In this document: in pieces, positions 600 through 42,722 of the stretch
Layout of the letters: each line of letters begins with the position of its first letter
How positions within the stretch are numbered: the stretch's first letter is position 1
Source of the DNA: a virus
IMG/VR virus record: IMGVR_UViG_3300004806_000039
Location: 1 to 42,722 of that record
Strand: one strand, 5' to 3'
Length of the DNA: 42,722 nt
Notes under the pieces: model-generated
The model's database searches: none
Told to the model about the DNA's origin: nothing
Seen by the model: only the letters and a program-made list of their open reading frames with translations
Program-made: the position numbers and the translations under genes

Positions 600-2606
600 T
601 CACTTTTTCTTTCCCTTCTTTGCGGGAGCAGGCCCTCCCATGGCATCCAGGAACTTCAGAATTTGTCCGGAATCAGCGGCGCGACCTCCATGGGCGGTGA
701 GATGCTTGAGAGCCGAGGTGAGAGAGGAGCGCACGGCCCCCGCTCGGGAGTCATAGGCTGTGGAGTTGACGTTCGGGAAATAACCTCCTCTTCCCTTGTT
801 AAAAATGCTCACATGGTAACCGGCGTGGAATCCCTTCGCGGAACGAGCCACAGAAACTTCAACTTCACACTTAGGAGATCCCTTGAAGATAAAGGTGGCC
901 CTGTCCGGATTGGTGCAGATTTGCTTTGAGTTCCACTCGAAGTCCTCTGGCGTTTCCTTTTTCCCTTCCCATTCGAGGCTTTCTCCGAGTTCGGCGGCTT
1001 CCTTAGTTGCCGCCAGTTCCCGATTAAATTCCTCTTCCACCTGTTTTCGAACCTTCTTGGGGTCAATTTTGAAAATTTTGTGGCAAGACGCCAGAAAGGC
1101 ATCTTTGGGATCTCCATCCCATTGAATGGCTAGAGCCAGCGTGGCATCCACCAGGAGCACAAAGGGGTCCGCATCTTTTGCAGGCTGCTGGGGATGAAGG
1201 TCGTTCATCTCCCCAAGCAGATCCCAAATAAGAGTGGTAGCAGCAGGGCTGAAACGCTTCGCCTCGATCTCAGGAGCCATGCGAAGGATCTCTGCTCGGC
1301 ACGCAATCTCCACCCTCTTTTGGATCTCAATTTCTAATATCCGAGCTTCATTGGCCTCTTCCTTTTTGTAGTTGGGAATAAAATCCTTGGAGGTGCTCCG
1401 TTGGGGTTTACGAAAAATCCTCTGATCCTCTGGCTTTTCCTTTTCAGCATCCCGGGCGGCTTCGAGTGCCAGATCCCGCTTCACCAGTTCGTGCACGGCG
1501 CCTGCTGCGTCCTTGGCCAAGATAACGGGGACGCGCCCTCCAATTAGCTTCTTCCATGGTTCGGCCTTCTTGACGCCCTGGCGAAGATCAGTTTCATCCG
1601 GAGAATCCCCAAGCTCCACGAATCCAGAGTTCCACTGCAATTTTCTGCCTGTGTAGTCGAAAACCTTTTTTGCATCGTCACGGGACATCGCCTCAATGCC
1701 GCGCTCTGGATCCGTAACGCTCTGGGACCAATGCTCGTGGGCCTTCTCCTTCTTCATCCGGAAACATTCTGGATTCAGGCAAACAGGATTTCGGTATGCA
1801 TCCTCCATGTCGGAGATGTTGAGAGAATTGTGCGGGCAGTCACCGCACTCTCCTCCACCGTTTCTTTCCCCGCTTACTTCATCAAAGAAAACTGGGACAA
1901 GGCTTTCATCTTCCCGGTCGAAATCGACTCCAGCCAGGGAGATCATGCATTCATCCCGGATGATCCTATCGAGGAGTCGATAAGGTAAAGGAGCCAAGCC
2001 GTCGATTGGTTTGAGCACCCGCTTGGTCAAATCGTCGCGAACAATCCTGGAGGGGATTTTTGCAAGAAGTCTGGCATGAGAAAACGAGATCTCTCCATTC
2101 TCAAGAGCAACCCCTGCAGGGGTGCCAAGGAGATTGAGAATAGAGATCCGTTGGCGGATAAACTCCTCGGTCCTTCCGATCCTGAGACCTAGGGCAGCGA
2201 GTGGTTTCTTTTCAGTCTCACCTAAAATCTTGATGAGTTGTTTCATTCCCTCTGCTTCCTCAAGCGGGGAAAGGTCCGATCTCTGGAGATTCTCAATAAG
2301 CTGCATCTCCAGAACCTCCCGTTCGGAGAGATCGTCACGGATGAGAACGGGAACTTCAGTGAGTCCTGAGAGAGAAGCTGCGCGAAGGCGGCACTCACCT
2401 GAAATCAGTTCGTAGGCGATTCCAGCCGCAATCCTTCCCGGGTCAACGGAGGCCCTCACCAGGAGAGGGTTTAGGATTCCATGAGCACTGATCGAGGCCG
2501 AGAGTTCGGAAAGGTACTCATCCCTAAAAATCTTTCTGGGATTCGTCTTGGAGGGGGCGATCTGGTTGACAGGGATGAATGAGAGATTAATCGGTTTTGA
2601 TGTCAT
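600..2606 (-). CDS. ParB-domain protein (large, 668 aa)
   Basis: The N-terminal ~200 residues are a ParB/Spo0J-type nuclease-like domain with a helix-turn-helix. Visible are NPRKIF (22-27), the CTP-binding motif in the form GECRLRAA (70-77, usual consensus GERRxRA) and IENLQRSDLSPLEEA (104-118). A Cys/His cluster follows near residues 250-285 (CGDCPHNS, then CLNPECF), probably a zinc site, as in ParB-like proteins of plasmids and phages. The C-terminal half is charged and unassigned. At 668 aa it is about twice the usual ParB length. No ParA ATPase is encoded in the window, so a role as DNA-binding regulator or CTP-dependent clamp is as likely as partition. Its start overlaps the upstream gene by 20 bp; no Shine-Dalgarno is visible. 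Confidence 0.85.
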   Translation of the reverse strand: MTSKPINLSFIPVNQIAPSKTNPRKIFRDEYLSELSASISAHGILNPLLVRASVDPGRIAAGIAYELISGECRLRAASLSGLTEVPVLIRDDLSEREVLEMQLIENLQRSDLSPLEEAEGMKQLIKILGETEKKPLAALGLRIGRTEEFIRQRISILNLLGTPAGVALENGEISFSHARLLAKIPSRIVRDDLTKRVLKPIDGLAPLPYRLLDRIIRDECMISLAGVDFDREDESLVPVFFDEVSGERNGGGECGDCPHNSLNISDMEDAYRNPVCLNPECFRMKKEKAHEHWSQSVTDPERGIEAMSRDDAKKVFDYTGRKLQWNSGFVELGDSPDETDLRQGVKKAEPWKKLIGGRVPVILAKDAAGAVHELVKRDLALEAARDAEKEKPEDQRIFRKPQRSTSKDFIPNYKKEEANEARILEIEIQKRVEIACRAEILRMAPEIEAKRFSPAATTLIWDLLGEMNDLHPQQPAKDADPFVLLVDATLALAIQWDGDPKDAFLASCHKIFKIDPKKVRKQVEEEFNRELAATKEAAELGESLEWEGKKETPEDFEWNSKQICTNPDRATFIFKGSPKCEVEVSVARSAKGFHAGYHVSIFNKGRGGYFPNVNSTAYDSRAGAVRSSLTSALKHLTAHGGRAADSGQILKFLDAMGGPAPAKKGKKK

Positions 2607-3123
2607 GGTTTGAGGCTTTGGATCGTTTTAAAAATTTCTTGCCGCCCTTTCTGTTGCAGTTCCCTTTCCGGTGGCGGCGATAACTCTCTGATGCGGCTTG
2701 GGATTTCTGGCCCGGCAGCTTGCTGCCGGTCATTCCGGAAAGACTGATTTCGCGGGAGATCCCCTTGCAGCGCCATGAATGGGCTCCTGCGGTCTCTCCG
2801 TAGAAATAGCCCAGCTCGTGCATCGTCATCTTGTTCCAGGGCTCGATATGGCAGGCACGGCCACAGGCAGCCATCTGCTTGAGCATCTGGGCAGGATGGG
2901 GGCCGTGTGCTCCTAGAAACCGGAAGAATGCCTTAATCCCGGTAATCCGCTGATGAATGTCGTACTCGGTAGGAGCCGAATCCTCCCCATCACTTTCAGC
3001 TGCAATTATCTCATCAAAAGGGAGGTCAACATAGACCGGCTCCCAACCCGTACGGTTGTAAAAACGGGTCAAGGCTCTGTTTGCCTTTTCATCCAGTTCA
3101 CGGAATCCGGCCTTCGCGGTCAT
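2587..3123 (-). CDS. Hypothetical protein with sigma-like helix-turn-helix segment
   Basis: 178 aa, not recognised. Residues ~105-130 (TMHELGYFYGETAGAHSWR) have the spacing of a sigma-factor region-4 type helix-turn-helix (HELG, then GET, then a basic residue), so DNA binding is plausible. The C-terminus is strongly basic (repeated RK/KK) with Asn and Ser. It lies directly upstream of the ParB-domain gene and overlaps it by 20 bp, so the two are probably cotranscribed. The HTH reading is an inference from one short motif. Confidence 0.6.
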   Translation of the reverse strand: MTAKAGFRELDEKANRALTRFYNRTGWEPVYVDLPFDEIIAAESDGEDSAPTEYDIHQRITGIKAFFRFLGAHGPHPAQMLKQMAACGRACHIEPWNKMTMHELGYFYGETAGAHSWRCKGISREISLSGMTGSKLPGQKSQAASESYRRHRKGNCNRKGGKKFLKRSKASNHDIKTD

Positions 3124-5504: not shown

Positions 5505-5722
5505 TTGAGCACCCCCAATTTTGAGAGATCCCAGATCCAGATCGGGATACCGGCTAAAGTGATCGCAAGTGCGATCAGGAAGTTCTTTCTACGCTCTACA
5601 GAGAGGGAAGTCCTCTTTTTGTCCCACTTTTGTCCCCCTGCTTGCGTAACTCCCTTATAATCAAGGGAGCGGGTGAAGGGAATCGAACCCTCGTCACTGG
5701 CTCTTGTTTCAGAATGTTTCAT
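5501..5722 (-). CDS. Small membrane peptide overlapping attP (start uncertain)
   Basis: The C-terminal part is convincing: a basic stretch (KKRTSLSVERRK), one hydrophobic segment (NFLIALAITLAGIPIWIW) and a stop overlapping the next ATG as ATGA. The start is uncertain. The first in-frame ATG is at 5722, and the reading frame from there crosses the tRNA-like attP core, encoding EGSIPFTRS from it. If that start is used, integration would change the N-terminus or promoter of this gene. An alternative non-ATG start closer to the membrane segment cannot be excluded. Confidence 0.45.
   Translation of the reverse strand: MKHSETRASDEGSIPFTRSLDYKGVTQAGGQKWDKKRTSLSVERRKNFLIALAITLAGIPIWIWDLSKLGVLK
5618..5638. 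repeat. Candidate integrase arm-type sites, left pair
   Basis: TTTGTCCCAC (5618-5627) and TTTGTCCCCC (5629-5638) in direct orientation, 11 bp apart, on the left of the attP core. The same two 10-mers, with one mismatch and in reverse order, recur on the right (5767-5786). Paired arms on both sides of a core are typical of tyrosine-integrase attP sites. Confidence 0.5.
5665..5705 (-). other. attP core: 3' end of a tRNA-Gly gene
   Basis: On the minus strand this reads as the T-arm and acceptor 3' strand of a tRNA: T-stem GAGGG / loop TTCGATT / CCCTT, then CACCCGC and T73 followed by CC. U73 and an acceptor that would pair with GCGGGTG fit tRNA-Gly. The 5' half of a tRNA is absent, so it is not a functional tRNA gene. 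It lies ~100 bp upstream of the integrase start, the usual place for an attP matching the 3' end of a host tRNA gene. The gene identity is inferred from the acceptor stem only. Confidence 0.75.
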
Positions 5723-5802: not shown

Positions 5803-6846
5803 ATGGCCTCCCTCTTGAAAAAGCCTTCCAGCCCTTTCTGGTATCTGCAATGGAAAGACGGGAAAAAATGGAAGAAATCGAGCACTGGCCTCCGATGGGA
5901 TAATCCAAATGATACGGCGGCCGCTAGAGAACTCCGTGCAAAGCACGAGGCTAAGGAGTACCGAAGCGCTGCAACTGTGACTATAGGTTGGGACTGGGTG
6001 CCCAAATACCTCAAAAATCAGGCTCTTTCCCCTCGCACCCTTGAGAGGTACACCGATGCCTGGAACTGGATGGGGCTCTACCTTACCACAACGGGAATTG
6101 ACGTGCCGAAGGTCACCTATTCTCTTGTTTCCAATTACATCGAATGGAGACTCACTCGGAAAAAGAAGAACGGGAAGCGAAGCGGCCGCAACACTGCCAT
6201 CCTCGAAGTCAAGTTGCTTGCTTCCCTTCTCAATGAGAGTGTCAGACGTGGCTATATTGCTGCTTCCCCTCTTGCCGTGCTCAAATTGCGACGGGATCCC
6301 CCGAAGGCAAAGAGGGAGTTTACTGATGAGGAAATTGAGAAGTGCCGAGAGGCACTCAAGGACGAACCAGCGTGGATGGGGACGGCCTTCGAGATCTCCT
6401 TGTGCACCGGCTGCAGACTTAGGGACACCAGAATTCCCCTCAATATGGTTGTGATAGATACCTCGTTCCCAACCATGACCTTCCCTTGCCCCAAGGGGGG
6501 AGAAAACAAATCGTTTTCCATCCCTGTTCCGAAGCAGCTGATACCAATGTTCCGCAGAATGAAGAGCGAGGGACGGATCCACACCATAGATGAATTCCCA
6601 TTCCAGCCTAGCAGGCGCTGGCAGCAATTTTTTCAGAAGGTCAAAATTGAGGGGGTTTGTTTTCATTCGTTGAGAGTCACAAAGGTTACGCGGCTGCGCC
6701 GTGAAGGAGTTCCTCGTGAGGCTGCAATGCGCTTGGTGAATCATTCCTCCGAGTTGATCCACATGCTTTACGATCGGCACCAGGTGCGCGACCTTGCCCA
6801 GTGGGCTGACATTGGGATCGCAGGGAACGCCGCCTCCACAGCTTGA
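5803..6846 (+). CDS. int: Tyrosine recombinase (phage integrase)
   Basis: 347 aa from the ATG at 5803 (MASLLKKPSSPFWYLQW); upstream in-frame starts would run through the right arm sites. An N-terminal arm-binding/SAM-like core-binding region (to ~residue 165) precedes the catalytic domain. The active-site set is complete: Arg in CTGCRLRD, Lys in the beta-hairpin CPKGGENKSF, HSLR box, His in RLVNHSS and the nucleophile Tyr in HMLYDRH. It integrates and, with a partner, excises the phage at the tRNA-Gly-type site just upstream. It is one of only three plus-strand genes I accept. No recognisable excisionase is adjacent; the divergent RHH proteins downstream are candidates. Confidence 0.95.
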   Translation: MASLLKKPSSPFWYLQWKDGKKWKKSSTGLRWDNPNDTAAARELRAKHEAKEYRSAATVTIGWDWVPKYLKNQALSPRTLERYTDAWNWMGLYLTTTGIDVPKVTYSLVSNYIEWRLTRKKKNGKRSGRNTAILEVKLLASLLNESVRRGYIAASPLAVLKLRRDPPKAKREFTDEEIEKCREALKDEPAWMGTAFEISLCTGCRLRDTRIPLNMVVIDTSFPTMTFPCPKGGENKSFSIPVPKQLIPMFRRMKSEGRIHTIDEFPFQPSRRWQQFFQKVKIEGVCFHSLRVTKVTRLRREGVPREAAMRLVNHSSELIHMLYDRHQVRDLAQWADIGIAGNAASTA

Positions 6847-6980
6847 AGTCGCTCAAGTAGATTCTTCCGGCAATGACGGGGAAGGAAGGGTCAGACCACA
6901 ACTCCGAGGCCTTTGCAAACGAGAGGCCAGCGGCTTTCATAAAACCGCGCTTTGAAAGTGGTTTTTCGATTGGCATGGAA

Positions 6981-7187
6981 TCAGGGGATCGGTTGGGTGG
7001 GATTTGGTGATTGGAGTTCCTGGAGTTTTGAAACAACAAGTGGAATTCCTGCCCGAATTGCCAAGGAAGCTATGCCTTTGATGGTGAGATTATTTGCTTT
7101 GGCTATTTGCTTCATAAGCTCGATCAGATCGATGGGAAGATCGATATTCTGAGGTTTTGTGGCAGGATTCTGATTTTCTGAGGTCAT
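6981..7187 (-). CDS. Ribbon-helix-helix type DNA-binding protein (divergent switch, left)
   Basis: 68 aa from the ATG at 7187 (MTSENQNPATK); the longer frame uses a TTG at 7205. Residues ~16-55 fit a ribbon-helix-helix fold: strand NIDLPIDL, helix IELMKQIAKANNL, turn TIKG, helix IASLAIRAGIPLVVSKL. Such proteins bind as dimers to short palindromes. It diverges from the RHH gene at 7295, with a perfect 10+10 bp palindrome over its own predicted promoter. Repressor of a lysis/lysogeny switch, or an excision/antirepressor factor, is an inference from position and fold. Confidence 0.7.
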   Translation of the reverse strand: MTSENQNPATKPQNIDLPIDLIELMKQIAKANNLTIKGIASLAIRAGIPLVVSKLQELQSPNPTQPIP

Positions 7188-7221
7188 GCTTACGCGCGGT
7201 GTCAAATAGGAATTAACGGCG

Positions 7222-7249
7222 AAAATAAAGGATTCCTTTATTTCGTCAA
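7222..7249 (-). promoter_or_regulatory. Predicted promoter of the leftward RHH gene
   Basis: On the minus strand TTGACG (7249-7244), a 16-bp spacer and TATTTT (7227-7222) form a reasonable sigma-70 type promoter, with the ATG 35 bp beyond the -10. The spacer and -10 are occupied by the 21-bp palindrome, so a bound dimer would block polymerase directly. Confidence 0.45.
7223..7243. promoter_or_regulatory. Operator palindrome of the RHH switch
   Basis: AAATAAAGGA - T - TCCTTTATTT: ten base pairs of perfect dyad around a single central base. It sits between two divergent RHH genes and overlaps the leftward promoter. Its 13-bp core AAAGGATTCCTTT recurs at 7303-7315. Confidence 0.7.
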
Positions 7250-7260
7250 ATCTTTTTTTG

Positions 7261-7288
7261 TTGGAAAACTATTTTTTTGCAGTATTGT
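7261..7288 (+). promoter_or_regulatory. Possible promoter of the rightward RHH gene (near-leaderless)
   Basis: TTGGAA (7261-7266), 16-bp spacer, TATTGT (7283-7288), with the ATG at 7295. A start site about 7 bp past the -10 would fall on the ATG, giving a leaderless transcript, as some phage repressors have. The -35 match is only partial. Confidence 0.35.
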
Positions 7289-7294
7289 TTCGCA

Positions 7295-7591
7295 ATGAAG
7301 AAAAAGGATTCCTTTCTCTCCATAAATATCGCAACTGACGTTAATATCGAACTTCAGGCTGCAGCCGATTTACTGAAGCTCAAGAAGAACACGTTGGCCC
7401 GATTGGCAATAGAGGCGACTGTTGAAAGTATTAAAGAGAAGGGCTACATCGTTCTTCCCTTAAAAATCACAGTTGACGGAATACCTGACGCAAAAAAAAA
7501 GAGTGCCGAAACGCTCGGAGGAGGCGGAATTGCTTCAACTGCTTCCTCCAATTTGAACCATCCACTCGCCCCGATGGAATCGTGTGGCTGA
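7295..7591 (+). CDS. Ribbon-helix-helix type DNA-binding protein (divergent switch, right)
   Basis: 98 aa from the ATG at 7295; a TTG at 7277 is the only longer start. The N-terminal ~50 residues again look like RHH: a strand in SFLSINIATDV, helix IELQAAADLLKL, turn KKN, helix TLARLAIEATVESI. The C-terminal half (Gly/Ser/Ala-rich) has no visible fold. The second operator core lies over codons 3-7, so protein bound there would stop its own transcription. Together with the divergent gene at 6981-7187 this looks like a two-protein phage switch; which one maintains lysogeny cannot be told. Confidence 0.7.
   Translation: MKKKDSFLSINIATDVNIELQAAADLLKLKKNTLARLAIEATVESIKEKGYIVLPLKITVDGIPDAKKKSAETLGGGGIASTASSNLNHPLAPMESCG
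7303..7315. promoter_or_regulatory. Second operator core inside the rightward RHH gene
   Basis: AAAGGATTCCTTT, identical to the centre of the 7223-7243 palindrome (7227-7239), 76 bp away start to start. The match is partly forced by the codons Lys-Asp-Ser-Phe, but an identical 13-mer in this position is unlikely by chance. Confidence 0.6.
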
Positions 7592-7611: not shown

Positions 7612-8502
7612 ATGAGCGAAGTAACTTCTCAGCATTACTGCCGAACGTGCAAATCAATGAGGGCATTCACTAGGAATGGGCCGAATAACCTCTTTCACTT
7701 GATCCTATGCCTCGTGACAGTCGGTTTGTGGATTCCAATATGGCTCCTGTTTTGCTTTGCCAACGCATTTGTTCCTTCACGTTGCAAATTCTGTGGAGGT
7801 TCTAGAACTTTAAATATCCCCTTTGGAAAGGTATTTATTTTCATCATCATTGCATTTCTTGCTCTCGGCTACTTTGTGAATAAAAAAAATTATAAAGCTC
7901 CCGAGATTGCCAAGATCGTTCCTACGACATCACGCGCTTTTCCACCTCCAGAGTGCTGGCCAAAGAGTGTTCATATCTTACAAGCGATTGAGTTCTCAGG
8001 CGCTCCCTCGGGAGCCGGGAAAATCACTTCAAAACTACCTAAAGGAACAGAGGTGAAGGCTACTCTTACGGATGATCATTCTACTCTTTTTCTTAGATCC
8101 ATGGATCTAGAAGCTTCAGCACCAATAGGAATGACCGACTTTCTTGAAGAGGCTGAAAGAATAAGAGTAAAAATCATTGAATCGGAAAAATTGACTGAGC
8201 AAATCTCCAGGGAAAAATTGCGGCAAGAAAAAATTTTAGCTGATCAGGAAGCTGAAAAAAACAGGAAGGAAATGCTCCTGAAAAATTCTCGGACAATTTC
8301 CTTTAGAGTGCTCCAAGTATTAGCAGACGGATGTATGGTAGAACCGGACGGTTTCGATGGAAGAGTTTACCTTGAGGGGCTCTCAGGGGCTGCAGAAGGA
8401 GAGCATTTTTCTGCCCATGTTATCCGCTCAGGAACATTCAGTTACAAAACCGTTCTAGGAGCACCGTCCACGATAGAAAAATGGGTAATGATTGCTGATT
8501 AA
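7612..8502 (+). CDS. Zinc-ribbon membrane protein with coiled coil (possible lysogenic-conversion gene)
   Basis: 296 aa. N-terminal zinc ribbon split by a membrane segment: CRTC (10-13), hydrophobic LFHLILCLVTVGLWIPIWLL, then CKFCGG (~59-64); a second hydrophobic segment VFIFIIIAFLALGYFV (~73-88). A charged helix (~175-222, rich in Glu/Lys/Gln) looks like a coiled coil, followed by a small beta-rich C-terminal domain. It is on the plus strand with integrase and an RHH gene, convergent with the lysis genes (6 bp apart), so it may be expressed from the prophage. Superinfection exclusion or other host-modifying roles are guesses. Confidence 0.65.
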   Translation: MSEVTSQHYCRTCKSMRAFTRNGPNNLFHLILCLVTVGLWIPIWLLFCFANAFVPSRCKFCGGSRTLNIPFGKVFIFIIIAFLALGYFVNKKNYKAPEIAKIVPTTSRAFPPPECWPKSVHILQAIEFSGAPSGAGKITSKLPKGTEVKATLTDDHSTLFLRSMDLEASAPIGMTDFLEEAERIRVKIIESEKLTEQISREKLRQEKILADQEAEKNRKEMLLKNSRTISFRVLQVLADGCMVEPDGFDGRVYLEGLSGAAEGEHFSAHVIRSGTFSYKTVLGAPSTIEKWVMIAD

Positions 8503-27614: not shown

Positions 27615-27649
27615 GACACTCGGCAGCGCGTGTCAAATTTCCCTGTGGT

Positions 27650-27682
27650 TAAAAATAGAAGAGCCGCCATTTCTGGCGGCTC
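27650..27682 (-). terminator. Rho-independent terminator
   Basis: On the minus strand GAGCCGCC-AGAAAT-GGCGGCTC (8-bp perfect stem, 6-nt loop, 27682-27661) followed by TTCTATTTTT. It lies between the protease and scaffold genes, inside the late operon, so it may set the relative amount of capsid and packaging products. Confidence 0.75.
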
Positions 27683-27713
27683 AAGTAGGTCAGGTTTTTC
27701 GTCTTAAAGGCCG

Positions 27714-27844
27714 TTCCAACCAGCGATCAAATCCACCAAACGCGCGTTTGGTGAAATTCCAAACCAGCAATCAAATCCACCAAACACGTGTTTGGTGAAA
27801 TTCCCAACCAGCGATCAAATCCACCGGACACGTGTCTGGTGAAA
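27714..27844. repeat. Three tandem ~44-bp repeats, each with a 20-bp palindrome
   Basis: Units at 27714-27756, 27757-27800 and 27801-27844 share TTCC(A/C)AACCAGC(G/A)ATCAAATC. Each then contains a palindrome: 27734-27753 (CACCAAACGC/GCGTTTGGTG, perfect), 27778-27797 (CACCAAACAC/GTGTTTGGTG, perfect) and 27822-27841 (CACCGGACAC/GTGTCTGGTG, one mismatch). It lies between the protease gene and the terminator. No gene is visible in 27615-27856. It may be a set of REP-like units, protein-binding sites, or mRNA hairpins. Confidence 0.9.
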
Positions 27845-27856
27845 TTTATTTAGGGC

Positions 27857-42260: not shown

Positions 42261-42722
42261 CAGACAACCTCCTCAAATTCACCCGCATCATTGAGCTTGT
42301 AATCGGTGTCGGCCTTGATGCCGTTTTCGCCGATATAGGCCACAGAAACCCTCCAGCGTTTTTCCTTATCAACCCACCGAGTTAGTACGAGAGTCCCACC
42401 ATCAGCAGCCCGGGCAACGCAACCATGGGAAGCTCCTATTACCAGCGAAGATCTACCTGATGCTGCCAACTTCGAGGAGTATCCTGATGCTGCCAACTTC
42501 GAGTAGTCGCCTGATGCTGCCAACTGCGAGTAGTCGCCTGATGCTGCCAACTTCGAGGAGTATCCTGATGCTGCCAACTTCGAGGAGTCGCCTGATGCTG
42601 CCAACTGCGAGTAGTCGCCTGATGCTGCCAACTTCGAGGAGTATCCTGATGCTGCCAACTTCGAGGAGTATCCTGATGCTGCCAACTTCGAGGAGTCGCC
42701 TGATGCTGCCAACTGCGAGGAG
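42260..42722 (-). CDS. Nonapeptide-repeat phage protein, C-terminal part (see 1-565)
   Basis: Continuation of the gene that starts at 565. It adds ten nonapeptide units (LAASG core) and a C-terminal ~60 residues (LVIGASHGCVARAADGGTLV, then TRWVDKEKRWRVSVAYIGEN). The frame here has no real start codon: the TTG at 42712 is just a Leu within a repeat. The unit-to-unit changes are confined to the same three positions, suggesting a repeated structural element such as a beta solenoid. Repeat proteins of this kind occur in several phages, function unknown to me. Confidence 0.8.
   Translation of the reverse strand, partial: SSQLAASGDSSKLAASGYSSKLAASGYSSKLAASGDYSQLAASGDSSKLAASGYSSKLAASGDYSQLAASGDYSKLAASGYSSKLAASGRSSLVIGASHGCVARAADGGTLVLTRWVDKEKRWRVSVAYIGENGIKADTDYKLNDAGEFEEVV
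42446..42722. repeat. 27-bp tandem repeat, right part
   Basis: About ten copies of the 27-bp unit, continuing at base 1. Units are mosaic combinations of TAT/TCG, TTC/TGC and GAG/TAG, as expected from repeated recombination or slippage between copies. Confidence 0.95.

Follow-up and report, generated by a model that had tools for sequence, protein, structure and literature searches.

A divergent pair of ribbon-helix-helix genes beside the integrase of an uncultured phage and its relatives

Two small ribbon-helix-helix (RHH) proteins, RHH-L and RHH-R, are encoded back to back beside the integrase gene of an uncultured virus. About a dozen other uncultured phages, distantly related, show this back-to-back layout as well, and comparison of the sequences therefore indicates that the divergent RHH pair is a real and conserved regulatory module. 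We regard it as fairly probable that the pair forms a small switch of the P22 arc/mnt kind, in which two repressors regulate their own expression and that of the two operons to which they belong. RHH repressors as such are already known from P22 immI and from the virus SSV1; the novelty lies in a divergent pair of them being retained next to the integrase in a whole set of uncultured phages. The literature searches brought up no account of such a pair next to a phage integrase.

The window analysed here is the whole IMG/VR record IMGVR_UViG_3300004806_000039, 42,722 bp in length, and its features are collected in Table 1.

The integrase-proximal locus

The divergent gene pair is bounded on one side by the integrase gene and on the other by the point at which the leftward-reading late genes end. 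Almost all of the lytic genes are encoded on the minus strand; they start to the left of the integrase gene and head away from the putative operator O1, which is located within the 107 bp that separate the two RHH genes (7188-7294). In searches against Pfam, the integrase matches PF00589 just under the cut-off (E 5.6e-6) and PF13102 above the cut-off.

Table 1. Features of the RHH locus and its surroundings in the window.
Feature	Position	Strand	Remarks
tRNA 3'-end-like fragment (T arm + acceptor, tRNA-Gly-like)	5665-5695	-	just upstream of int; GACGAGGGTTCGATTCCCTTCACCCGCTCCC read directly
Tyrosine recombinase / phage integrase	5803-6846	+	phrog_1, E 1.4e-33
96-aa ORF	6686-6976	-	antisense to int 3' end; in the place of the relatives' HTH (possible Xis) gene
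Left RHH protein (RHH-L), 68 aa	6981-7187	-	ATG 7187 preferred as the best start; relatives' profile E 1.2e-5
Possible left promoter, TTGACG-16-TATTTT	7222-7249	-	TTGACG 7249-7244, TATTTT 7227-7222
Operator O1 (putative), perfect 21-bp palindrome	7223-7243		AAATAAAGGA-T-TCCTTTATTT
Right RHH protein (RHH-R), 98 aa	7295-7591	+	relatives' profile E 6.7e-6
Operator O2 (putative), exact copy of 13-bp core AAAGGATTCCTTT	7303-7315		inside RHH-R
Zn-ribbon / membrane-type protein	7612-8502	+	21 bp behind RHH-R gene; cargo position

The tRNA-like fragment ahead of the integrase gene probably represents the attP core, judging by its resemblance to a tRNA 3' end. Stretches resembling tRNA likewise lie ahead of int in two related phages (G003 and L164, see below), and the window yielded neither a complete tRNA gene nor a match to any Rfam family. 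The integrase and the fragment before it suggest a temperate phage, and it is on these grounds that the phage is read as temperate here. A terminase search of genome contigs returned distant relatives only, mostly from Proteobacteria. Both ends of the record (1-120 and 42455-42722) carry the same 27-bp tandem repeat, which encodes LAASGxSSK-type repeats; the genome may therefore be circular, the record having been opened within this gene.

The 96-aa ORF on the minus strand (6976-6686), which had been missed in the initial annotation, starts 4 bp past the RHH-L stop codon. A role in recombination directionality would be attractive for it, given that relatives have an HTH-type gene in this place. 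On the other side, the Zn-ribbon protein encoded behind RHH-R has homologs in G003 (E 2e-8) and L221; its PHROGs matches are weak and are to families of unknown function. In the relatives that were examined, the gene behind RHH-R is small and variable and encodes differing membrane-type proteins, so that this position looks like a cargo slot.

RHH proteins and candidate operators

The RHH-like character that had been ascribed to the two small proteins is borne out by comparison with their relatives. Neither protein is recognised in a Pfam scan, and PHROGs gives a weak Arc-like match for the left protein alone (E 0.094). The decisive evidence came from a profile of 20 RHH proteins encoded at the corresponding place in related phages, with the window excluded: among 352 window ORFs it picked out exactly RHH-R and RHH-L (both at E ~1e-5; the next ORF at E 3.2), which confirms both, at the level of sequence similarity, as RHH proteins.

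AlphaFold models are consistent with this assignment. After an extended N-terminus, two helices are predicted in RHH-L (residues 19-32 and 36-59; mean pLDDT 67) and in RHH-R (residues 14-27 and 31-49; mean pLDDT 62, about 90 in the domain core); both models are single chains, and the N-terminal strand of the RHH fold needs a dimer. The RHH domain of RHH-R spans approximately residues 5-49 and is followed by a tail predicted at low confidence. Fold searches with both models listed mainly RHH proteins, including CopG, Arc, ORF56, CdbA and VapB, none of them individually significant, and the top Foldseek matches of RHH-R were to CopG, with every E above 0.7. A ten-member profile that includes the window's two proteins reaches CopG-family chains in the PDB (6iya, E 0.001), and Pfam RHH_1 matches six of the ten aligned members. 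CopG, a plasmid copy-control repressor that binds a short pseudosymmetric 13-bp element, is thus the best-known relative in structural terms, on profile and fold evidence, but, unlike the window pair, it comes as one gene within a plasmid replication operon.

RHH-L matches the right-hand RHH protein of G003 with a BLAST E of 4e-6 in a single comparison. Since it resembles the relatives' right-hand type most closely, the two genes may have swapped places or replaced each other. Alignment places an acidic residue, Asp16, on the presumed DNA-contacting strand of RHH-L.

The perfect 21-bp palindrome reported between the divergent genes is indeed present, and is symmetric without mismatch around one central base. 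The window contains three palindromes with 10-bp arms, this one included; in a shuffled sequence of the window's size, 0.2 perfect palindromes of this length with a gap no larger than 2 would be expected. Measured against AT-rich intergenic sequence alone, its length is modestly unusual (4/300; ~4% of shuffles; p about 0.01-0.04). The exact recurrence of AAAGGATTCCTTT is stronger evidence than the length of the palindrome: in 42.7 kb, O2 is the sole other exact copy, lies 76 bp from the first and sits in a 31-nt stretch that is 77% identical to the stretch at O1. As initially described, this copy spans codons 3-7 of the right gene, provided that translation starts at ATG 7295 and not at TTG 7277. 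No other contig in IMG/VR contains the full 21-bp palindrome in exact form.

A scan of the whole window with a matrix made from the two copies, which weak or diverged sites could escape, found no third operator above shuffle level, and none can be made out where the leftward genes presumably start (int to 5504). Since no third site rises above shuffle level, the visible target of the pair is its own region. Within the gap between int and the leftward genes, a palindromic operator-like site, AGAGAGGGAAGTCCTCTTTTT, was noted at 5600-5620; it scores 12.5 bits, within shuffle noise. The left promoter has the hexamers and position first assigned to it, but not the strength: the sigma70-like match of 9/12 to the consensus occurs at chance frequency (1 found, 0.9 expected), and promoters in the window are not convincing.

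Conservation in related phages

When the two RHH proteins and the integrase were used directly as queries, IMG/VR gave nothing useful, nor did annotated phages for the two RHH proteins; integrase matches in annotated phages reach 22-35% identity only. Relatives were reached via terminase, ParB and alignment (ParB, RHH, integrase) queries. The first syntenic relative, found via terminase, was 3300032286_001767 (G003, read as L160 and L161). Its genes are arranged in the order ParB, integrase (26% identical), minus-strand HTH-type gene, RHH, AT-rich spacer and divergent RHH, beyond which are encoded a secreted-type protein and, separately, a homolog of the window's Zn-ribbon protein. The 3' part of its HTH-type gene is antisense to the 3' end of the integrase gene, and its RHH gene matches PF01402 (RHH_1) above the cut-off.

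The order integrase, small gene antisense to its 3' end, RHH, intergenic region, divergent RHH and small membrane-type protein is conserved in at least nine IMG/VR contigs (G003/L160, L164, L165, L197, L199, L201, L202, L203 and L204). A more distant ParB phage, L171, also has a divergent RHH pair beside its integrase, and probable pairs were judged by eye in L198 and L200, so that the total with the conserved arrangement is probably eleven to twelve contigs. A right-hand RHH-like gene only was seen by eye in L219 and L221, and L205, L206 and the L209-L217 group have the integrase (and, where read, an HTH gene) without RHH genes. Because some related integrase loci are without the full pair, the RHH pair is conserved yet not universal.

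The HTH-type gene of the relatives either adjoins RHH-L or overlaps it, and runs antisense to the 3' end of int. It is matched better by phrog_57, a terminase-small-subunit family, than by an excisionase family. The 96-aa ORF of the window was considered as a homolog of this gene and rejected, as no homology was detectable.

Inverted repeats are also found in the intergenic regions of the relatives, including TTTGCA-N9-TGCAAA, which is identical in G003 and L164, TTGCAT-N5-ATGCAA in L197, and TTTGCATAC-N15-GTATGCAAA in L171. Summed over 13 intergenic regions, inverted repeats reach 81, compared with a mean of 67.3 and a maximum of 78 in 200 shuffles, whereas single intergenic palindromes are mostly within the shuffle range. 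The operator sequences are not conserved and differ from phage to phage, as would be expected if binding specificity has been diverging.

Two further elements are common to several relatives and absent from the window. The first, TTTTATCCTTTCCCGACGG-N5-CTTTGTA, stands right after the right RHH stop codon and before the variable cargo gene (L160:12022-12055); it is also present in L164, L165, L197, L199, L201, L202 and L204, and partly in L203 and L221, raising the question of whether it is a promoter or a border of cargo exchange. The second is a C-terminal tail of the YPLTEV..xRAAExPKK type, shared by the RHH-R proteins of G003, L165, L197, L201 and L203, whose RHH domains differ.

Regulatory role and known switches

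In the two-repressor switch that we favour, two paralogous RHH proteins would be transcribed divergently from the 107-bp region, and RHH dimers would bind O1 and probably also the weaker O2 inside the start of the right gene. Each side would repress its own and/or the other operon, in the manner of Arc and Mnt in P22. The left operon would comprise RHH-L and the ORF antisense to int, in a possible recombination-directionality position, and the right operon RHH-R and the membrane-type cargo gene. The balance between RHH-L and RHH-R would then set which of the two operons is on. In this scheme we infer DNA binding, the assignment of protein to site, mutual repression, the role of the ORF behind RHH-L and any effect on lysis and lysogeny. 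Speaking against the scheme are the unconvincing promoters, the failure to detect homology between the 96-aa ORF and the relatives' HTH-type gene, the better match of that gene to phrog_57, the differing operator sequences, most of whose palindromes singly fall within the shuffle range, and Asp16 on the presumed DNA-contacting strand of RHH-L.

The arc and mnt genes of P22 are transcribed divergently, and the Arc operator is 21 bp long. Mnt represses arc and ant, and Arc represses mnt and moderates ant (PMC11016777), the two proteins regulating each other within one immunity region (PMC11016777, PMC7549136). In P22 there is also the antirepressor Ant, the C2/Cro switch is a separate one, and immI is located in the late-operon region (PMC2629481). 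Like immI, the locus in the window and its relatives consists of two small divergent RHH repressor genes with one shared control region. Unlike immI, the window module lies beside the integrase, with a membrane-type gene behind one RHH gene and an int-antisense ORF behind the other. The protein-family and PHROGs scans found no ant-like or C2-like gene among the scanned proteins of the window and G003. Since the search for an antirepressor and a C2-type repressor was negative, the module is not classed as immI, although it would operate in a similar way. In Pseudomonas Pf prophages, an Arc/Mnt-domain protein is encoded near xis and repressor C (PMC7549136), but this is one, larger Arc-family protein, and no divergent RHH pair is reported there.

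The initial annotation had gone further and proposed that the RHH pair may run lysogeny, a proposal that the analysis does not support. We consider it unlikely that the pair is the whole lysis-lysogeny switch, with RHH proteins replacing CI/Cro and silencing the lytic operon directly. It is true that no CI/Cro-like HTH repressor is visible, as had been stated: no HTH_3, S24 or Cro-type protein was found among the best 25 families for 57 window and 32 G003 proteins, nor any CI/Cro/S24 repressor in PHROGs scans, and the integrase and the probable attP in the tRNA-like fragment suggest a temperate phage. There is also a precedent in the archaeal virus SSV1, in which the RHH protein F55 keeps lysogeny in a CI-like manner (PMC5569661). 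However, F55 is a single RHH protein with tandem ATAGATAG operators at several early promoters, whereas the window palindrome is found only in the region of the pair, and, unlike in a CI/Cro switch, no operator above chance is found at the presumed early lytic promoter, the 5600-5620 candidate included. Furthermore, related integrase loci without RHH genes exist, HTH proteins could have gone unrecognised (for example that at 2587-3123 beside ParB), and the nearest known parallel, P22 arc/mnt, has a local action and works alongside a C2 repressor distinct from it (PMC11016777). Rather unlikely, too, is the more general proposition that in a ParB-encoding lineage of temperate phages a divergent RHH pair, possibly acting as heterodimers, makes the entire lysis-lysogeny decision, with operators that diverge fast and with coupling to integrase-region genes and an exchangeable membrane-protein cargo slot.

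The gene at 2587-3123 (minus strand) encodes a 178-aa protein and has homologs in G003, L164, L165 and L167. The G003 copy contains an HTH-like stretch, MSCEEIGGMFGETKAAVSYRIKQL, and the protein is a possible unrecognised regulator.

RHH is a usual DNA-binding fold of antitoxins, and RHH-R (or RHH-L) might be a type II antitoxin-like repressor with a toxin or exclusion protein encoded downstream. VapB26 and other antitoxins are among the structural relatives, RHH-R of G003 matches RelB weakly (E 0.001, below the cut-off), and the small variable gene behind RHH-R would take the place of the toxin gene. This reading is nevertheless improbable: the downstream gene has no toxin family match in the window or G003, where the locus in this respect is unlike a type II toxin-antitoxin operon, the downstream genes of the L-series relatives, read by eye, encode unrelated membrane-type proteins, and to our knowledge a second divergent RHH gene is not typical of toxin-antitoxin modules. 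Very improbable is that the palindrome and repeat are due to chance or to another factor such as a host regulator, with the RHH pair acting elsewhere, since, for all that the palindrome is modestly unusual in AT-rich intergenic sequence and the second copy is coding sequence, the exact 13-bp recurrence is seen at this locus only, centred between the two divergent RHH genes, and operators of RHH proteins are as a rule short palindromes or repeats.

With the pair present in about a dozen phages and no CI/Cro that could be recognised in either of the two genomes examined, the two-repressor switch would make a second basic design of prophage switch testable. For annotators of environmental phages, the locus indicates where to seek a regulator when no CI-like protein is found; its position is useful because Pfam misses the RHH copies of the window.

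Finally, the phage encodes ParB at 600-2606, and the gap between minus-strand genes at 27615-27856 holds two near-identical perfect 20-bp palindromes, CACCAAACGCGCGTTTGGTG (27734-27753) and CACCAAACACGTGTTTGGTG (27778-27797), 44 bp apart. Their CACGTG-type centre, which we take to recall parS sites, suggests that they may be sites of the phage ParB.
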